Origin: Deltaproteobacteria bacterium
GTDB taxonomy: Bacteria > Desulfobacterota > Syntrophia > Syntrophales > UBA2210
Reading direction: 5' to 3'
DNA: 52,179 bases
Assembly: GCA_016933215.1 (NCBI GenBank)
Contig: JAFGBH010000040.1
Coordinates: 1-52,179, forward strand
Under the pieces are notes generated by a model. It had not been told where the DNA came from. It made no database searches and saw nothing but the letters and a program-made list of their open reading frames with translations. Shown one piece after another: positions 4,244 through 21,724 of the stretch (position 1 is the stretch's first letter; every line of letters begins with the position of its first letter). A program made the position numbers and the translations under genes.

Positions 4244-6244
4244 CTAATAAAATTTCTTCCCGAACATCTCCTCCGAGAGACCGGTAAGATCAGCCCACTT
4301 CATGGGACCGCCCTTATCGGGGGGAAATCCCGTGCCCCAGATCATCCCCACGTCGATCATCCGGGGATCGTCGACGATATGCCTGTCGAGGAGGTCTTTC
4401 CCCACCTCGAGCATGGCCTTAAAAAGACCGAGCTGGATTTCTTCCTCCGTTTTTTCCTTTACGCCTTTCGAGTCAATAAGGGGAAGGACATCGGGGTCGA
4501 CACTCCCGTCCTTCAGGAAGAATCCCTTTCCCGATTTCTTCAGGCCCCATCGCCCGTCGTTCACCACGGCCGAGAGCGTTTTCTGCTCCACATCCATTCC
4601 CACCAGAACTTTGTGGATAACATCGATGCCTACCTCGTCGGTGAGACGGATCGGCCCCAGTGGCATACCGAAGCTGGTCATGGCTCCATCCACCTTTTCG
4701 ATCGGATTTCCCTCTTCCACATAGGTTATCGCGTTGGTCAGATAGGGGAAGAGCAGCGCGTTCACCACGAATCCCGGATTGTCCCTGCAGACAATGGGGC
4801 GCTTCCTGATGGAGGCAACGAAGTTCAGGAGGTTGTCGACGGTTTCCTGACCCGTCTCGTCTCCCCGGATGACCTCGACCAGTTGCATCTTCCAGACGGG
4901 GGAGAAGAAATGGAGCCCGCCAAATCGCTCCGGTTTCGCTACGTATTGGGACATGCTGGTGATCGGAATCGAGGAGGTGTTGCTCGCGATGATACAATCA
5001 TCGGAAACGGCCGGACACAGTTCCTTATAGACCTGTTCCTTTATTTTGATGTCCTCGAAGACGGCTTCGATGACGATATCGACGTCCTTGAATTCATCGA
5101 CATACTCGGAGGTTGTGGTGATCAGGTTCATGAGATCGTCCACGGGAACCTTGAGGCGTTTTTTCTCGACCATACCCTCCAGGATTTTGCGGACGAATTC
5201 CTTCCCCGGCTCCAGTGCCTCGGGAATATCCTTCACAATAACGGGTACCTGCATTCTTCTCAGTATCTCGATGACGATGCCCCTCCCCATAGTGCCGAAT
5301 CCGAGGACAGCCGCCTTCTTGAGCGGTTTCGGTTCAAAGCCCTTCGTCATCATCGACTTCGCTTTGTCCGTCAGTGTCTTGATGAAAAAGGTATTAATAC
5401 TACCCTTCGCCTCATTCGAAAGGGCAACCTTTACAAAGTTTTCCTTCTCCAGTTCCAATCCTTCACTGAGCGGAAGTTTGACGCCTTCCTGAATCGATTT
5501 TATCGCCAGCATCGGCCCGGGAATCTCACGTCCCTTCGTTGCCTTGAGAACCCCCTGGCGGGCCATTTCCATTATCTCGTCGATCTGGGAGAAATCCTGT
5601 TTCGGTCTCTTCAGGTCGGCCGTTCCCTCGATTATCGCTGCGAGAAAGGATTTTGCCTCTGCGAGGAGATCCGCGTCTTGTGGCAGCAGCCGATCAATGA
5701 TGCCGTTTTCAAGGGCCTTGGGGGCCGGCAGCATCTTACCCCGTAAAATGAGTTCAATTGCACCATAGCCGATCAAGCGGGGAAGTCTTTGCGTACCTCC
5801 TCCGCCGGGGAAGAGGCCCACATTACATTCCGGAAGTCCTATCAATGTTGCGGCCGATTCCTTTGCTATTCGTGCCGTACAGGCAAGGGCAAATTCCAGC
5901 CCGCCGCCAAGACAGTGTCCGTGAATCGCTGCCAGAGAGGGGATTTTCAACTCACTCAGCCTGTTAAAGGGATCGTGCAGGTAATCAAGCGCTTTTCGTG
6001 CCTCCTCTTCCGATTCTATCTCGGCGATCATCTTGAGGTTGGCACCGGCAAAAAAATTGTTCGGTTTTCCGGAAATGAAGATCACGCCCGCCAACGATTC
6101 ATCCTTTTCCAGAAGCCCGACGAGTTCGTTAAATTCCATTATGGCTTTGTCGGTCCACGTATTCATCGCGTCACCGACCATGTCAAAGGTTACAATGCCT
6201 ATTCCATCATCTTTTGTAAGTTTGAAGATTTCTCCAACGCTCAT
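4244..6244 (-). CDS. Bifunctional enoyl-CoA hydratase / 3-hydroxyacyl-CoA dehydrogenase (FadJ/FadB alpha-like)
   Basis: The protein catalyses two successive beta-oxidation steps: hydration of enoyl-CoA and NAD-dependent oxidation of the 3-hydroxyacyl-CoA. The N-terminal crotonase domain (about 1-190) has the oxyanion segment FFAGANL, and both catalytic glutamates are present at E117 (GGGLEFALAC) and E139 (GLPECNVGLFPGGGG). The Rossmann domain begins at about 310 with GFGTMG. The dehydrogenase catalytic His is in HFFSPVWKMQLVEV, followed by the NPGFVVNALLFPYL dimer helix and a C-terminal repeat. The length of 666 aa is a little shorter than E. coli FadJ/FadB. I chose ATG at 6244, 10 nt after GGAGG, over an in-frame TTG at 6250 that sits too close to it. 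No thiolase is adjacent. Degradation or syntrophic oxidation of acyl-CoAs is the likely role; the chain length is unknown. Confidence 0.93.
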   Translation of the reverse strand: MSVGEIFKLTKDDGIGIVTFDMVGDAMNTWTDKAIMEFNELVGLLEKDESLAGVIFISGKPNNFFAGANLKMIAEIESEEEARKALDYLHDPFNRLSELKIPSLAAIHGHCLGGGLEFALACTARIAKESAATLIGLPECNVGLFPGGGGTQRLPRLIGYGAIELILRGKMLPAPKALENGIIDRLLPQDADLLAEAKSFLAAIIEGTADLKRPKQDFSQIDEIMEMARQGVLKATKGREIPGPMLAIKSIQEGVKLPLSEGLELEKENFVKVALSNEAKGSINTFFIKTLTDKAKSMMTKGFEPKPLKKAAVLGFGTMGRGIVIEILRRMQVPVIVKDIPEALEPGKEFVRKILEGMVEKKRLKVPVDDLMNLITTTSEYVDEFKDVDIVIEAVFEDIKIKEQVYKELCPAVSDDCIIASNTSSIPITSMSQYVAKPERFGGLHFFSPVWKMQLVEVIRGDETGQETVDNLLNFVASIRKRPIVCRDNPGFVVNALLFPYLTNAITYVEEGNPIEKVDGAMTSFGMPLGPIRLTDEVGIDVIHKVLVGMDVEQKTLSAVVNDGRWGLKKSGKGFFLKDGSVDPDVLPLIDSKGVKEKTEEEIQLGLFKAMLEVGKDLLDRHIVDDPRMIDVGMIWGTGFPPDKGGPMKWADLTGLSEEMFGKKFY

Positions 6245-7306: not shown

Positions 7307-7332
7307 CAATATTTTATACCGTTGGAAGCTGA

Positions 7333-8001
7333 ATGATAGAAAGTCTTACCGTACTCTATGGAGCGCTCCCCTATCTTTTTCGGGGGACTCTCGTCACGAT
7401 TGCCTTAGTTGCAGGAGCAATGGGCCTCGGTCTTGTCGTCGGTGTCAACCTTGCCGTGGGTCAGGTCTATGGCAACAGGTGGTTGCGTAAGGCTATCGGA
7501 ATTTATATATGGTTTTTTCGAGGGGTGCCCCTTCTGGTACTCCTCTTCCTCTTCTATTTCGGCCTTTTTTCACTGCTCGGAATCAACCTCTCCGCCTTTA
7601 CGGTAGCCATAATCGTCTTGGGACTCATTACTGCCGCATACCAGTCCCAGATTTTCAGAGGAGCGATCCTGTCGCTGCCGGAAGGACAGCTCAAAGCAGC
7701 ACGGGCACTCGGCATGAGTGACAGGAAGGCCATCGTTTTGATCATTCTTCCTCAGGCACTCCGGCTCTCCATACCGGGATGGTCGAATGAGTATTCCATC
7801 GTTCTCAAAGATTCTGCCGTTGCCTATGCGCTCGGAGTTATGGAAATGATGGCGCGTGCTCATTTCGTCGCATCAAGGACATACGAACACCTGCCGCTCT
7901 ATTTTTCGGCCGGCCTTATTTTTCTTATACTTACATATCTGGGGACCAAGGGACTCCGAGTTCTGGAAGAAAAGGTACGGATTCCCGGATACTCCAGATA
8001 A
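7333..8001 (+). CDS. Amino acid ABC transporter permease 1 (HisM/GlnP family)
   Basis: This inner-membrane subunit of 222 aa has about five hydrophobic helices. The N-terminal segment YLFRGTLVTIALVAGAMGLG and FFRGVPLLVLLFLFYFG are typical of the polar amino acid permease family. The cytoplasmic EAA loop that docks on the ATPase is seen as AARALGMSDRKAIVLIILPQ (about 127-146). Starts with ATG after TGGAAG. It is the first of two permeases and probably forms a heterodimer with the product of 8780-9454. Confidence 0.93.
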   Translation: MIESLTVLYGALPYLFRGTLVTIALVAGAMGLGLVVGVNLAVGQVYGNRWLRKAIGIYIWFFRGVPLLVLLFLFYFGLFSLLGINLSAFTVAIIVLGLITAAYQSQIFRGAILSLPEGQLKAARALGMSDRKAIVLIILPQALRLSIPGWSNEYSIVLKDSAVAYALGVMEMMARAHFVASRTYEHLPLYFSAGLIFLILTYLGTKGLRVLEEKVRIPGYSR

Positions 8002-8013
8002 GGATTAGTTTAC

Positions 8014-8778
8014 ATGGCACATAGAAAAACAATTCTCAGAATCGAAGACATGACGAAACGATACGGGTCGAAAACGGTCCTGAAAAACGCCTCCCTTTCT
8101 CTCAAGGAGGGAGAGCTGAAGATATTGATCGGCCCTTCGGGCGGAGGCAAAAGTACGCTCCTTCAGTGTGTCAACTTTCTGGTCAAGCCGGACAAAGGAC
8201 GTATCTGGCTGGACGGGGAAGAGATCATACATTCCCGGAAAAAGGAGCTCTATGCCTACCGGCAGAAAGTCGGCATGATCTTCCAGGATTTCAACCTCTT
8301 CGATCACCTTACGGCGCTCCAGAATGTTCAGATCGCGCTCGTGAAGGTGAAAAAAAAGACCAAGGAGCAGGCCCGTACAAGAGCGATTAATGAACTGGAA
8401 CGGGTGGGACTGGGGGATCATATCAAAAAATATCCGGCGCAACTTTCCGGCGGCCAGAAACAGCGGGTTTCAATCGCACGGGCCCTGGCAATGGACCCCA
8501 AAGTAATGCTCCTCGACGAACCCACCTCCGCCCTCGATCCCGAGCTTATATCGGAGGTCCTGGACGTTATCATAAATCTGAGATTACACGGCATGACCAT
8601 GATCATGTCGACACACCAGATCGGATTTGCAAGCGAATTGGCCGATGAACTGGTGTTTCTCGAGGACGGGAACATTTTGGAGACGGGGCCACCCAAGAAA
8701 ATGCTCTCCGACGCGGACTGTGAAAGAACCAGGGAATTTTGTTCCAAGATAACCGAACTCTACGGAAATTCGTTCTAA
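8014..8778 (+). CDS. Amino acid ABC transporter ATP-binding protein (GlnQ/HisP family)
   Basis: This 254-aa cytoplasmic ATPase powers the transporter. The Walker A motif is GPSGGGKST (about 43-51), the Q-loop region is VGMIFQDFNLFDHLTA, the ABC signature is LSGGQKQRVSIARALAM, Walker B is VMLLDEPTSALDPE and the switch His is in MSTHQIGFA. The length and motifs fit the polar amino acid subfamily. It sits between the two permease genes, 12 bases after the first and 1 base before the second, so the genes are cotranscribed. Confidence 0.96.
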   Translation: MAHRKTILRIEDMTKRYGSKTVLKNASLSLKEGELKILIGPSGGGKSTLLQCVNFLVKPDKGRIWLDGEEIIHSRKKELYAYRQKVGMIFQDFNLFDHLTALQNVQIALVKVKKKTKEQARTRAINELERVGLGDHIKKYPAQLSGGQKQRVSIARALAMDPKVMLLDEPTSALDPELISEVLDVIINLRLHGMTMIMSTHQIGFASELADELVFLEDGNILETGPPKKMLSDADCERTREFCSKITELYGNSF

Positions 8779-16937: not shown

Positions 16938-18854
16938 ATGGGGAAAATCATAGGTATTGACTTGGGAACGACAAATTCCTGTGTTGCTGTTATGGAAGGC
17001 AGTGATCCGGTCGTCATAACAAATCAGGAGGGGAACAGGACGACACCGTCGGTGATTGCCTTTACTGACAGCAACGAACGGTTAGTCGGCCAGGTCGCCA
17101 AGCGGCAGGCCGTCACCAACCCCGAAAACACCGTATACGCAATAAAGAGGCTCATAGGGAGGAGGTTTTCATCAGCCGAGGTAAAGCACGATGTCACCAT
17201 CAGTCCCTTCAAGATAACCGAGGCCTCAAACGGCGATGCACAGATATCCATAAAGGGGAAAAATTACAGCCCTGCCGAGATATCGTCGATGGTACTCGCA
17301 AAGATGAAGCAGACGGCGGAGGACTACCTGGGCGAAAAGGTAACCGATGCGGTTATTACGGTGCCTGCCTACTTCAATGATTCGCAGCGACAGGCCACGA
17401 AAGACGCGGGAAAGATTGCAGGACTGAATGTCCTCCGGATTATCAACGAGCCCACGGCGGCATCGCTTGCCTATGGTCTTGATAAGAAGAAGGATGAGAA
17501 GATCGCCGTCTTTGACCTGGGCGGGGGAACCTTTGATATCTCCATACTTGAGCTCGGCGATGGTGTTTTTGAGGTAAAATCCACAAACGGCAACACCCAT
17601 CTTGGTGGTGAAGACTTCGATCAGAACCTGATAGGCTATATTGCCGATGAATTTAAAAAGGACCAGGGCATTGATCTTCGAAGCGACAAGATGGCCCTTC
17701 AGAGAATTAAGGAAGCGGCGGAAAAGGCGAAGATGGAGCTTTCCACATCGATGGAAACCGATATCAATCTGCCCTTTATCACGGCTGACGCCTCGGGACC
17801 AAAGCATCTGAACATGAAACTTACCAGGGCAAAACTCGAGATGCTCGTCGAGGACCTTATCGCAAAACTCGAAGCCCCGTGCAGAACCGCACTCAAGGAT
17901 GCAGGTCTTTCACAGAAAGATATCAATGAGGTCATTCTTGTTGGGGGCATGACCCGGATGCCGCGTGTGCAGGAAAAGGTAAAGGAAATCTTCGGAAAAG
18001 AACCTAACAGGGGCGTAAATCCCGACGAGGTGGTTGCGATCGGTGCGGCAATTCAGGCAGGTGTCCTAGCCGGTGACGTGAAAGACGTGCTCCTTCTGGA
18101 TGTAACCCCTCTTTCACTGGGCATCGAAACGCTGGGCGGCGTCATGACGACACTCATTGAGAAGAATACGACGATACCCACGAAGAAAAGCCAGATATTC
18201 TCGACGGCGGCGGACAATCAGCCGGCGGTCAGCATCCACGTGCTTCAGGGAGAGCGTCCCATGGCTGCGGATAACAGAACCCTCGGCAGGTTTGAACTCA
18301 CGGGAATTCCTCCGGCACCCCGAGGCCTTCCCCAGATCGAAGTCGCCTTTGATATCGACGCAAACGGTATTGTGCACGTTTCGGCCAAGGATCTCGGCAC
18401 GGGTAAGGAACAGAGTATCAAGATCACCTCTTCAAGCGGCCTTTCAGAGGAAGAGATAGACAAGCTTGTCAAGGATGCCGAGGCACACGCAGAGGAAGAC
18501 AAGAAGAAGAAGGCGTTGATCGAGGCACGAAATCAGGCCGATACCCTCGTTTACAGCGTCGAGAAGAACCTCAAAGAGATGGGCGATCAGATAGATGCCA
18601 CCGAGAAATCGAATATAGAAACATCACTCGAAAAGGTCAAAAAGGCCATGGAAGGTGACGATCTCGAGGCGATCAAGTCTGCCCAGGAGGAACTTACCAC
18701 AGCATCCCACAAACTGGCTGAGGCAATGTATGCGAAGGCAACAGCAAAAGAAGGGGGTGCCGGAGCAGAAGCGGGTGCAGCCGAAGGAGGACAGGCGGGG
18801 GCTCCCGATGATGATGTGGTAGACGCAGATTTCGAAGAGGTCAATAAAGAGTAA
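16938..18854 (+). CDS. dnaK: Chaperone DnaK (Hsp70)
   Basis: This is the ATP-dependent Hsp70 chaperone, full length at 638 aa. The nucleotide-binding domain begins [19 protein letters not shown], includes [15 protein letters not shown] and the [14 protein letters not shown] signature, and ends near [14 protein letters not shown]. The linker [13 protein letters not shown] follows, then the substrate-binding domain with helical lid, and the conserved tail [12 protein letters not shown]. It has an excellent ribosome site (AAGGAGG) and a strong terminator behind it, so grpE-dnaK end the transcript. dnaJ is not in this cluster. Confidence 0.98.
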
Positions 18855-18982: not shown

Positions 18983-20872
18983 CTACTTTTTCTTCTGTGG
19001 TAACGAACCTTCTTCCTCCGTAAAGGGCATGGTAAGCTCGTATACGCCTCTCTGGACAAATGCATGGGTGCGATAGGCCGATTTTTCAAAGATCCTAAGC
19101 ATCGGCTTGTTGTCGGCAATAATATCGGCCTTGAAACCTTCGATGCCCCGCTTTTTGGCTATCCTGATCAGCTTTTCAAAAAGATAGGTCCCGACTCCCG
19201 TTCCCTGAAGCGTTTCATCAACGACGAAGGCTACATCCGCATGAGGAGTATCCTTGTAACGCGTGTATCTCCCCTCGGCAATGACGCGCTCCGCCCCCGC
19301 TTCCTCAATAAGCCCCACGATCGACATGACCCTCTTGTAGTCGACATTCACATATTCCTGCATCTTCATGTGGGGCATCATCTTGATGGGACTGAAGTAT
19401 CGGTAATAGATACTCTTGTCCGAAAACCGGTAGAAAAGCCTTCGCATGTCATCTTCGTCGGAGGGTTTTATGGCACGGAATCGAATGGTAATGTTATTCC
19501 GAAATGTATGGGTGTTTGCCACATCATCGGGATAAAGATGTCCCGATTCCGCCATATAGATCTGATCTGGATAGAGGATATTGGATTTCTTTGCCCTCTG
19601 AACCAGATCGTTTCTGTCATCGGGATGCGCAATATCGATCAGGGCGAGGGCACGCTCACGCATGGTTCGCCCCCTGAGTGACGCGAGGCCGAATTCCGTC
19701 ACAATCAAGTCCAGGGACTCCATATTGGTTAACTGGCCGGGAAAATCCTTCACGGAAAGCACGATATTCGATTCACCCTTCAGGTTGCGGCTCGGAAGGG
19801 CAAAAATCGATCGTCCCCCCTTGGAAAGCTCCACTCCCGAATAGATCTCCTGCACCTCGTTAGGATCGAGGGTGACATTACCTTTTCCGAACTGCAGTGC
19901 GATGCCGCCACTCAGGTCCACCTTTCGCGCCGGGAGTATTTTTATAAACTTTTCGTTTTCCCCTATAACCCTCGGGTTGGTGACCACCTCTATCCCCTGA
20001 AACTCGATCAGGGGATTCCTGTCCAGCCATTCAAAGAGCTCCTGCGTCCCCTGTGCATAGGAGGTAACGCTCTTATTCCTGAATATCCGCTTGTTTTTGT
20101 TCGTCACGGCACCACTTTTTATCAGATCCATAAGGGCATCGGTCATCATAAGAGAGTGAACACCCAGATCTTTCTTGTGCGCAAGATACTTCAGAAGGGC
20201 CTCAAAGAGGGGTCCGATGGAAAAAGAGATACAACTGCCATCCTCAATCACCGACGCTATGTTCGACGCCAACCGCTCATGAACATCCGCCGCAGGCAAG
20301 CGGGGAAAGTAGATCGGTTTTTCCGTGGAGCGGACAAGATAGTCAAAATCGTTGACATGTAAAAAAGTGTCACCCATTGTAAAGGGGGTATCGTTGTTGA
20401 TTTCCCCCACCACAAGGGAGGCCCGTTCCATGGCGCGCCTCGCCATATCCACCGCCACACCGAGACTGCAGAATCCGTTTTTATCGGGGGGAGTAATCTG
20501 TACGAAGGCCACATCGACCTCTATGATACCGGCACTCACCAGTAAAGGAATCTTGGAAAAGTAACTCGGAATAAAATCTATTCTCCCTGCTTCGATGGCC
20601 TCGCTTGCCAGCCACCCGGAGAAGAAGGTCTTGAGCCTGTATTTATAGGAGTGCTCCTTGTCAACGGGGAGGGCGTCGCCGAGGCTCAGAAGTTGAATAA
20701 ATTCAAGATCCCTCAGATTTGTATCATCGGATTCAATGATATGTTTAATCAGCGTTCGAGGTTCCGCTGCACCGGTCCCCAGAAATATCTTCATTCCCGG
20801 TTTGAGCTTTTTGATTATCTTTTCAGGGGTAACAATCCTGCTTTCCCAACTTGCCACATTATAATCCTTCAT
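18983..20872 (-). CDS. Acetyl-CoA hydrolase/CoA-transferase-like domain fused to GNAT acetyltransferase
   Basis: This is a 629-aa two-part protein. Residues 1-450 follow the acetyl-CoA hydrolase/4-hydroxybutyrate CoA-transferase fold: KKLKPGMKIFLGTGAAEPRT, FVQITPPDKNGFCSLGVAVD, then LAHKKDLGVHSLMMTDALMD and the C-terminal lobe KGGRSIFALPS. Residues about 463-610 form a GNAT domain with the acetyl-CoA loop VDETLQGTGVGTYLFEKL. In family I CoA-transferases of this group the segment usually reads LGxHSEMFSDG, whose Glu forms the glutamyl-CoA thioester. Here that residue is Leu241, read from a CTT codon. The transferase part may therefore bind acyl-CoA without classical CoA transfer, while the GNAT part acetylates an unknown target. 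This domain fusion occurs as a named bifunctional family in anaerobic Proteobacteria. Confidence 0.88.
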   Translation of the reverse strand: MKDYNVASWESRIVTPEKIIKKLKPGMKIFLGTGAAEPRTLIKHIIESDDTNLRDLEFIQLLSLGDALPVDKEHSYKYRLKTFFSGWLASEAIEAGRIDFIPSYFSKIPLLVSAGIIEVDVAFVQITPPDKNGFCSLGVAVDMARRAMERASLVVGEINNDTPFTMGDTFLHVNDFDYLVRSTEKPIYFPRLPAADVHERLASNIASVIEDGSCISFSIGPLFEALLKYLAHKKDLGVHSLMMTDALMDLIKSGAVTNKNKRIFRNKSVTSYAQGTQELFEWLDRNPLIEFQGIEVVTNPRVIGENEKFIKILPARKVDLSGGIALQFGKGNVTLDPNEVQEIYSGVELSKGGRSIFALPSRNLKGESNIVLSVKDFPGQLTNMESLDLIVTEFGLASLRGRTMRERALALIDIAHPDDRNDLVQRAKKSNILYPDQIYMAESGHLYPDDVANTHTFRNNITIRFRAIKPSDEDDMRRLFYRFSDKSIYYRYFSPIKMMPHMKMQEYVNVDYKRVMSIVGLIEEAGAERVIAEGRYTRYKDTPHADVAFVVDETLQGTGVGTYLFEKLIRIAKKRGIEGFKADIIADNKPMLRIFEKSAYRTHAFVQRGVYELTMPFTEEEGSLPQKKK

Positions 20873-21136: not shown

Positions 21137-21724
21137 ATGAATAGAGGCTTTGCCAAGACCTTCATTATATCGATTCTTTTCGTCTTCACCTCTCTTGGTA
21201 TCTCTTTTCCGCCTTCGACCGCCTCATCCTCATCACCCTCCCGGGAATTTGAGACGAATATCTGCCGAGGGCGCCTTCTCGCCGACGATGAGTATTTCAA
21301 GGTCATCAAAGAGGCTCTCGAGGGGGCACAAAGCGAGATCGTAATGTCCTGCTTTCTTTTCAAGACAAATGGATACACGAGCAGTTACCCCGACATACTA
21401 CTCAGTCGTCTGATTGCGGCAGTCAAAAGGGGTGTGAGGGTGAAAATAATACTCGAACGTGATACAAATCCGAACTCAATGATAAATAGGAATAACAGGG
21501 AAACGGCAGAGAGGTTGCGAAGGGGAGGTATCGAGGTGATCTTCGACTCCCCGAAGACCACAACCCATACCAAAGTGGCAGTAATAGACAGAAGATACGT
21601 GTTCCTCGGAAGTCATAACCTGACAAGTTCTGCCTTGAAATATAACCATGAGCTTTCATTCGTGATCGATTCGCATGAGATGGCCAGAGAGGCCCTGGAT
21701 TACGTTAATGAACTGGGCAGATAA
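21137..21724 (+). CDS. Secreted phospholipase D-like nuclease (single HKD motif)
   Basis: The 195-aa protein starts with a hydrophobic export segment (FIISILFVFTSLGISF) followed by a small-residue and serine-rich stretch, so it is exported or tethered to the membrane. The mature part is one PLD domain. The catalytic motif is H144, K146 and D151 in HTKVAVIDRRYVFLGSHN, followed by the conserved GSxN. A single HKD motif and small size match Nuc-type endonucleases and mitochondrial-PLD-like proteins that work as homodimers. DNA or phosphodiester hydrolysis in the periplasm is likely; the true substrate is unknown. It is probably cotranscribed with the lipoprotein and surE genes that follow. Confidence 0.85.
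   Translation: MNRGFAKTFIISILFVFTSLGISFPPSTASSSSPSREFETNICRGRLLADDEYFKVIKEALEGAQSEIVMSCFLFKTNGYTSSYPDILLSRLIAAVKRGVRVKIILERDTNPNSMINRNNRETAERLRRGGIEVIFDSPKTTTHTKVAVIDRRYVFLGSHNLTSSALKYNHELSFVIDSHEMAREALDYVNELGR

Follow-up and report, generated by a model that had tools for sequence, protein, structure and literature searches.

Loss of the catalytic glutamate in a clade of CoA-transferase/GNAT fusion proteins, candidate lysine acyltransferases with a putative regulatory domain of CoA-transferase type

Canonical CoA-transferase catalysis appears to have been lost in the N-terminal part of a CoA-transferase/GNAT fusion protein encoded in the 52,179-nucleotide stretch of DNA analysed here (the window), a conclusion strongly supported by the absence of the nucleophile and of both oxyanion holes across a conserved clade of such fusions. 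The broader reading, in which we place slightly less than even confidence, is that these proteins form a class of lysine acyltransferases that sense through a class I CoA-transferase domain devoid of nucleophile and oxyanion holes, that other fusion lineages lost the nucleophile separately, and that the class fills the place of PatZ in the Syntrophales-like order.

Gene, domain layout and locus

The fusion gene (18983..20872, minus strand) is an open reading frame of 629 amino acids with an ATG start. An N-terminal CoA-transferase domain (residues 9-187; 20312..20848, minus strand; PF02550, E 4e-22) is followed by a C-terminal CoA-transferase domain (residues 275-426; 19595..20050, minus strand; PF13336, E 1e-38) and by a GNAT domain (residues 463-615; 19028..19486, minus strand) whose nearest relatives are the protein acetyltransferases Pat/PatZ and within which the Pfam model PF00583 matched residues 524-597, over its cut-off. 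The two-domain CoA-transferase homology was found by sequence comparison (PF02550, PF13336 and the solved structure 3eh7, E 1e-85); an AlphaFold2 model computed from five input sequences had a mean pLDDT of 42.6 and did not confirm the fold. The combination of domains as such already has a place in annotation, since NCBI product names call CoA-transferase/GNAT fusions bifunctional.

The neighbouring genes are a convergent dnaK (16938-18854, plus strand) and a divergent gene (21137-21724, plus strand), and the fusion gene therefore most likely forms its own transcript. No conserved operon partner that would link the gene to a target was found across the 25 neighbourhoods examined, neighbours being common to small groups only. 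Three genomes (L220, L225 and L232) have the same two genes 3' of the fusion gene and on the same strand, the first of which resembles trigger factor by its start, as judged by eye; the window copy adjoins dnaK. A paralogue in the host genome (68%, Thr241) adjoins genes that look by eye like phosphate-regulation genes. Two genomes carry pairs of fusion genes on one contig, with two copies within 14 kb at L224 and copies at 99876-101711 and 114178-116013 on contig C40 of genome G291, which suggests local duplication.

Loss of the catalytic glutamate

The sequence around residue 241 of the 629-amino-acid protein is KKDLGVHSLMMTDALMDL. The preliminary description had placed a leucine, encoded by CTT within positions 20145-20160, at the position of the catalytic glutamate, and this was borne out: Leu241 (20150..20152, minus strand, the codon reading from 20152 to 20150) aligns with AarC Glu294. 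In a phmmer search it aligned without gaps with the Glu of solved 4-hydroxybutyrate CoA-transferases (LGIHTEMFSDG in 3eh7, E 1e-85). The IPDAVL and DFxRGA-type motifs, which had been called diverged, are indeed so, GIGAIPDAV having become SIGPLFEAL and GGQ.DF.RGA having become NEVQEIYSGV.

Relatives were searched for in 297 genomes phylum-wide and in 155 genomes order-wide, the sampling in depth covering one phylum. Close relatives (E at most 1e-200) were found in 107 of the 155 genomes of the host order, and in 71 of the 92 good-quality ones; a scan of viral contigs added one further relative. In the clade sample of 63 close fusion relatives, window copy included, the residue-241 column contains Pro (34), Leu, Phe and Tyr (7 each), Ile (4), Val (2), Thr (1) and Gly (1), and Glu, Asp and Gln each 0/63. 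The nearest relative has Ile and the paralogue of the same genome Thr. Since the non-Glu state is thus clade-wide, a sequencing error, chance or a private mutation at residue 241 is ruled out. An alignment of such fusions scored at this column had been suggested beforehand; it gave loss of the Glu in 63/63 members of one clade, but many other fusions keep it.

Other catalytic elements

AarC numbering was transferred through an AarC-like relative; counted along the AarC sequence itself, Val270, Glu294, Asn347 and Gly388 fall exactly at the numbers given in PMC4876117. In the resulting alignment, the external oxyanion-hole Gly (AarC Gly388) is replaced by Glu339 (19856..19858, minus strand) and the internal oxyanion-hole Asn (AarC Asn347) by Thr298 (19979..19981, minus strand), while the gating loop Ser218-Ile219-Gly220 (20213..20221, minus strand; AarC Gly269-Val270-Gly271) has lost its first Gly and kept the hydrophobic gate. 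Compared to AarC, the clade has lost Glu294, Gly388 and Asn347 in 63/63 members each and Gly269 in 56/63.

The external oxyanion-hole Gly is reported to be strictly conserved across the superfamily (PMC4876117). All Glu-bearing sequences of the main table (48 fused, 27 unfused) have Gly at this position, and columns 241 and 339 taken jointly read E/G in 48/48 Glu-bearing fusions, Q/D in 18/18, D/G in 8/8 and H/S in 2/2. In a small group beyond the main table (L173, L210-L213), four members have Gln and keep the second Gly, the preceding Gly being changed to Ser or Asn, and one has Pro with Asp. The Asn347 position is more tolerant, being also non-Asn in 13 of the 48 Glu-bearing fusions. Glu339 is not conserved in the clade, where its column contains E (38), N (9), Q (7), A (5), H (3) and V (1), and no convincing acid that could substitute for the lost nucleophile was found in the clade alignment. 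It is thus very likely, on these alignments, that the N-terminal domain of the fusion is without CoA-transferase turnover. The earlier view that it is no longer a normal CoA-transferase is strongly supported by the loss of the nucleophile and of both oxyanion holes with no convincing replacement acid, but it applies to one clade, as many fusions keep the Glu.

Conservation and clade-specific residues

Mean pairwise identity in the clade was 0.62 for residues 8-190, 0.63 for residues 191-430 and 0.64 for the GNAT domain; in the Glu-bearing fusions the GNAT domain was less conserved (0.43) than the CoA-transferase part (0.51-0.57). NG86 estimates for 25 close pairs gave dN of 0.03-0.09 against dS of 0.3-2.1 in the CoA-transferase domain, the larger dS values being near saturation, and similar values in the GNAT domain. 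Decay of a useless domain is ruled out by this conservation and by dN/dS; on sequence evidence, the Glu-less CoA-transferase domain is a conserved pseudoenzyme.

Residues R39, W87, C214, E224, Q292, R316, K317, R362 and N369, among others, hardly vary across the clade and are seldom or never found in Glu-bearing fusions, and these invariants, E224 apart, point to a re-purposed domain. Glu224 (20201..20203, minus strand), after the gating loop, is acidic throughout the clade (E in 60 and D in 3 of 63). The basic pair Arg316-Lys317 (19922..19927, minus strand) is present in 63/63 members and is mostly Leu-Glu in Glu-bearing relatives, and the clade-invariant Arg362 (19787..19789, minus strand) is Thr in those relatives. 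A clade-specific loop, Gly-Lys-Gly-Asn-Val (residues 329-333; 19874..19888, minus strand), lies just ahead of the lost GxGGQ.DF motif. The net basic gain in the clade fits an anionic ligand, and placing these residues in the cleft needs a structure.

Other fusions and unfused relatives

Remoter fusions of the same phylum, 33-42% identical to the window protein, have the same domain order and group with it on the tree, and carry E, Q, D or H at column 241; as they were drawn from the top of the match list, the proportions of these residues are not population frequencies. Unlike the window protein, many of them keep both the Glu and Gly388, and these fusions are probably bifunctional. As an unfused control, PF13336 was searched in 59 genomes and the unfused genes were fetched. 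The 45 unfused rows, a few of which are fragments, had Glu at column 241 in 30 cases, Gly in 9 and Ala in 4, with no residue aligned in 2; the newly scored fused rows, which are partly genes already fetched, contained E (18), Q (8) and P (1). Loss of the Glu as a hallmark of all fusions is ruled out, as most other sampled fusions keep it. One unfused lineage (L180, L181, L183, L184, L187-L191 and L214) has Gly or Ala for the catalytic Glu (HSGMLSDG) and keeps the oxyanion Gly. This lineage likewise rules out a Glu loss confined to fusions, and the loss alone is therefore no proof of a GNAT-linked role.

In a FastTree phylogeny of the CoA-transferase region of 194 sequences, the Glu-less clade of 63 members was monophyletic (support 1.0) and adjoined a pair of His-type fusions (0.994). 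The node that unites all fusions, which is weakly supported (0.53), includes a single row scored as unfused (L209). The open frame of this gene is 682 amino acids long, and its GNAT domain is probably encoded beyond the short stretch that was retrieved. Read by eye, the tree indicates separate losses of the Glu in the group formed by the His-type fusions and the clade, in a Gln group of 19, in a Gln/Pro group of 5, in two or three Asp groups and in the unfused Gly/Ala group. The 18 rows of the main Gln type (L045, L052, L060, L065, L068 and others) combine Gln at the nucleophile with Asp at the external oxyanion Gly without exception, a second independent coupled change. The Asp-type fusions (L041, L046, L064, L070, L079, L083, L103 and L104) keep the oxyanion Gly. 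By comparison with the behaviour of Glu-to-Asp mutants, they are possibly thioesterases rather than transferases.

The GNAT domain

The comparison with Pat/PatZ made in the preliminary description is apt, as the closest solved relatives of the GNAT domain are protein acetyltransferases (9it0, 9isq, 4nxy, 4u5y and 4ava, SlPatA and MtPat included). The best NCBIfam match is also an acetyltransferase Pat model, although at 75.7 bits against a cut-off of 460 it is far under the equivalog threshold, and small-molecule enzymes are among the relatives as well (1vhs and an ArsN1-like NCBIfam match). The acetyl-CoA P-loop QGTGVG (residues 556-561; 19190..19207, minus strand) retains the Q/R-x-x-G-x-G/A pattern, with Gly559 in 63/63 clade members. 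Asp546 (19235..19237, minus strand; D in 59 and E in 4 clade members) aligns with the Glu of AE(F/V)A in PatZ/SlPatA and occupies what we take to be the general-base position. The Glu is thus replaced at this position and an acid is kept; since the supposed base of mycobacterial Pat is not the sole contributor to activity (PMC8556138), Asp546 is not decisive for function. From these alignments, the GNAT domain probably acts on proteins.

Proposed function and alternative explanations

The fusion protein would be an acyltransferase built of two domains. Its C-terminal GNAT domain would acylate protein lysines with acyl-CoA as the donor, and the most likely targets would be metabolic enzymes, for example the AMP-forming acyl-CoA synthetases, of which the host genome encodes roughly 40. 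The N-terminal class I CoA-transferase fold, unable to form the glutamyl-CoA intermediate, would have been retained as a ligand-binding regulatory domain, and binding of an anionic metabolite, with acyl-CoA or CoA as first choice, would close the two lobes and change GNAT activity. The AarC-E294A variant adopts a fully closed form with CoA or an acetyl-CoA analogue, and contact between the ligand and Glu294 has been proposed to prop the AarC site open (PMC4876117). Loss of the Glu thus need not abolish ligand binding, and a Glu-less domain could be a binding clamp. That the N-terminal domain senses acyl-CoA specifically and controls the GNAT domain is what we infer from the parallel with PatZ, whose acyl-CoA synthetase domain is inactive. 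The ligand may be something other than acyl-CoA, since the clade has changes in the loops that fold over CoA in active enzymes. Sensing of some metabolite with regulation of the GNAT domain has, in our estimation, about an even chance of being correct, and the full explanation, a dead CoA-transferase domain as ligand-binding regulator of a protein-acylating GNAT domain, appears to us similarly balanced.

Retention of the domain at full length though its catalytic residues are gone would also suit a structural scaffold that binds no metabolite and serves the oligomeric state or target docking of the GNAT domain. CoA-transferase family members with solved structures form oligomers, which likewise favours a scaffold. 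However, several clade-specific conserved positions lie in the AarC active-site loops (218-224 and 329-339), where a pure scaffold would not need them, and we regard this explanation as unlikely. The same loops contain the acids on which continued catalysis could depend, whether Glu224 or, in the window copy, Glu339 as a relocated nucleophile, unless the domain is a thioesterase that works without a glutamyl intermediate. The position of Glu224, after the gating loop, is Glu or Asp in 63/63 clade members, and the oxyanion Gly is kept in the 8/8 fusions with an Asp nucleophile, so that catalysis may persist in some Glu-less fusions. Yet an acid also occurs at 224 in unfused enzymes with the normal Glu (of 27, eight have Asp and four have Glu), and there it is therefore no nucleophile replacement; within the clade the position is Asp in three members, and Glu339 is not conserved. 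The relocated nucleophile is weakened by these observations, and with both oxyanion holes lost a domain that remains an enzyme is quite improbable.

The GNAT domain might instead modify a small molecule, the dead CoA-transferase domain binding the acceptor or the acyl donor, as the small-molecule enzymes among its relatives and the Asp in place of the general-base Glu would allow. The best solved relatives, however, are all protein acetyltransferases and the best NCBIfam match, for all its low score, is the Pat model, which makes this reading improbable. The preferred reading remains a regulated protein acyltransferase.

Relation to known systems

The fusion is homologous over residues 6-429, with the same domain order, to class I (family I) CoA-transferases (4-hydroxybutyrate CoA-transferase 3eh7, 3gk7, RipA 3qli and AarC), from which it differs by replacement of the nucleophile Glu, the external oxyanion Gly, the internal oxyanion Asn and the GxGGQ.DF.RGA loop and by the added C-terminal GNAT domain. 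It shares with E. coli PatZ/YfiQ, S. enterica Pat and S. lividans PatA (Type I/II) the combination of an inactive CoA-metabolism domain with a homologous GNAT domain (9it0, 9isq, 4nxy), but it has a class I CoA-transferase as putative regulatory domain where they have an NDP-forming acyl-CoA synthetase. Like the Type III (class I-beta) enzymes MtPat (cAMP domain), AAPatA (ACT domain) and MxKat (NADP domain), it has an N-terminal putative regulatory domain and a C-terminal GNAT domain, the latter homologous to that of MtPat (4ava). No regulatory domain of CoA-transferase type is described among the lysine acetyltransferase types in the relevant parts of two reviews (PMC8556138 and PMC6456759). 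Open-licence papers contained nothing on point about CoA-transferase/GNAT fusions, which is weak evidence of novelty. If the proposed function is correct, one more regulatory domain would join the known lysine acetyltransferase types, and the fusions would be a case of an enzyme turned sensor in which Glu, Asp, Gln, His and hydrophobic states are all present in living relatives for comparison.

Acylation setting of the host genome

In syntrophic anaerobes, which live on acyl-CoA chemistry close to what thermodynamics allows, acyl-lysine marks are abundant, and the clade provides a conserved candidate writer of these marks with a built-in CoA-type domain. Abundant acyl-lysine and sirtuins are documented in Syntrophomonas wolfei (PMC9676460) and, in work as cited there, in Syntrophus aciditrophicus; no acyltransferase assigned as the writer of these marks was found in the literature examined. 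The host genome contains three SIR2-family (sirtuin) genes and 42 AMP-binding matches, of which 40 are over the cut-off (AMP-forming acyl-CoA synthetases); the NDP-forming synthetase family is represented by 13 matches. No GNAT domain fused to an NDP-forming synthetase was found in this genome, in which two CoA-transferase fusions are the sole long-frame GNATs. On contig C1 of genome G000, a SIR2-family gene and an AMP-forming acyl-CoA synthetase gene (5193-5732 and 7309-8397) lie ~1.6 kb apart and are a possible eraser/target pair.
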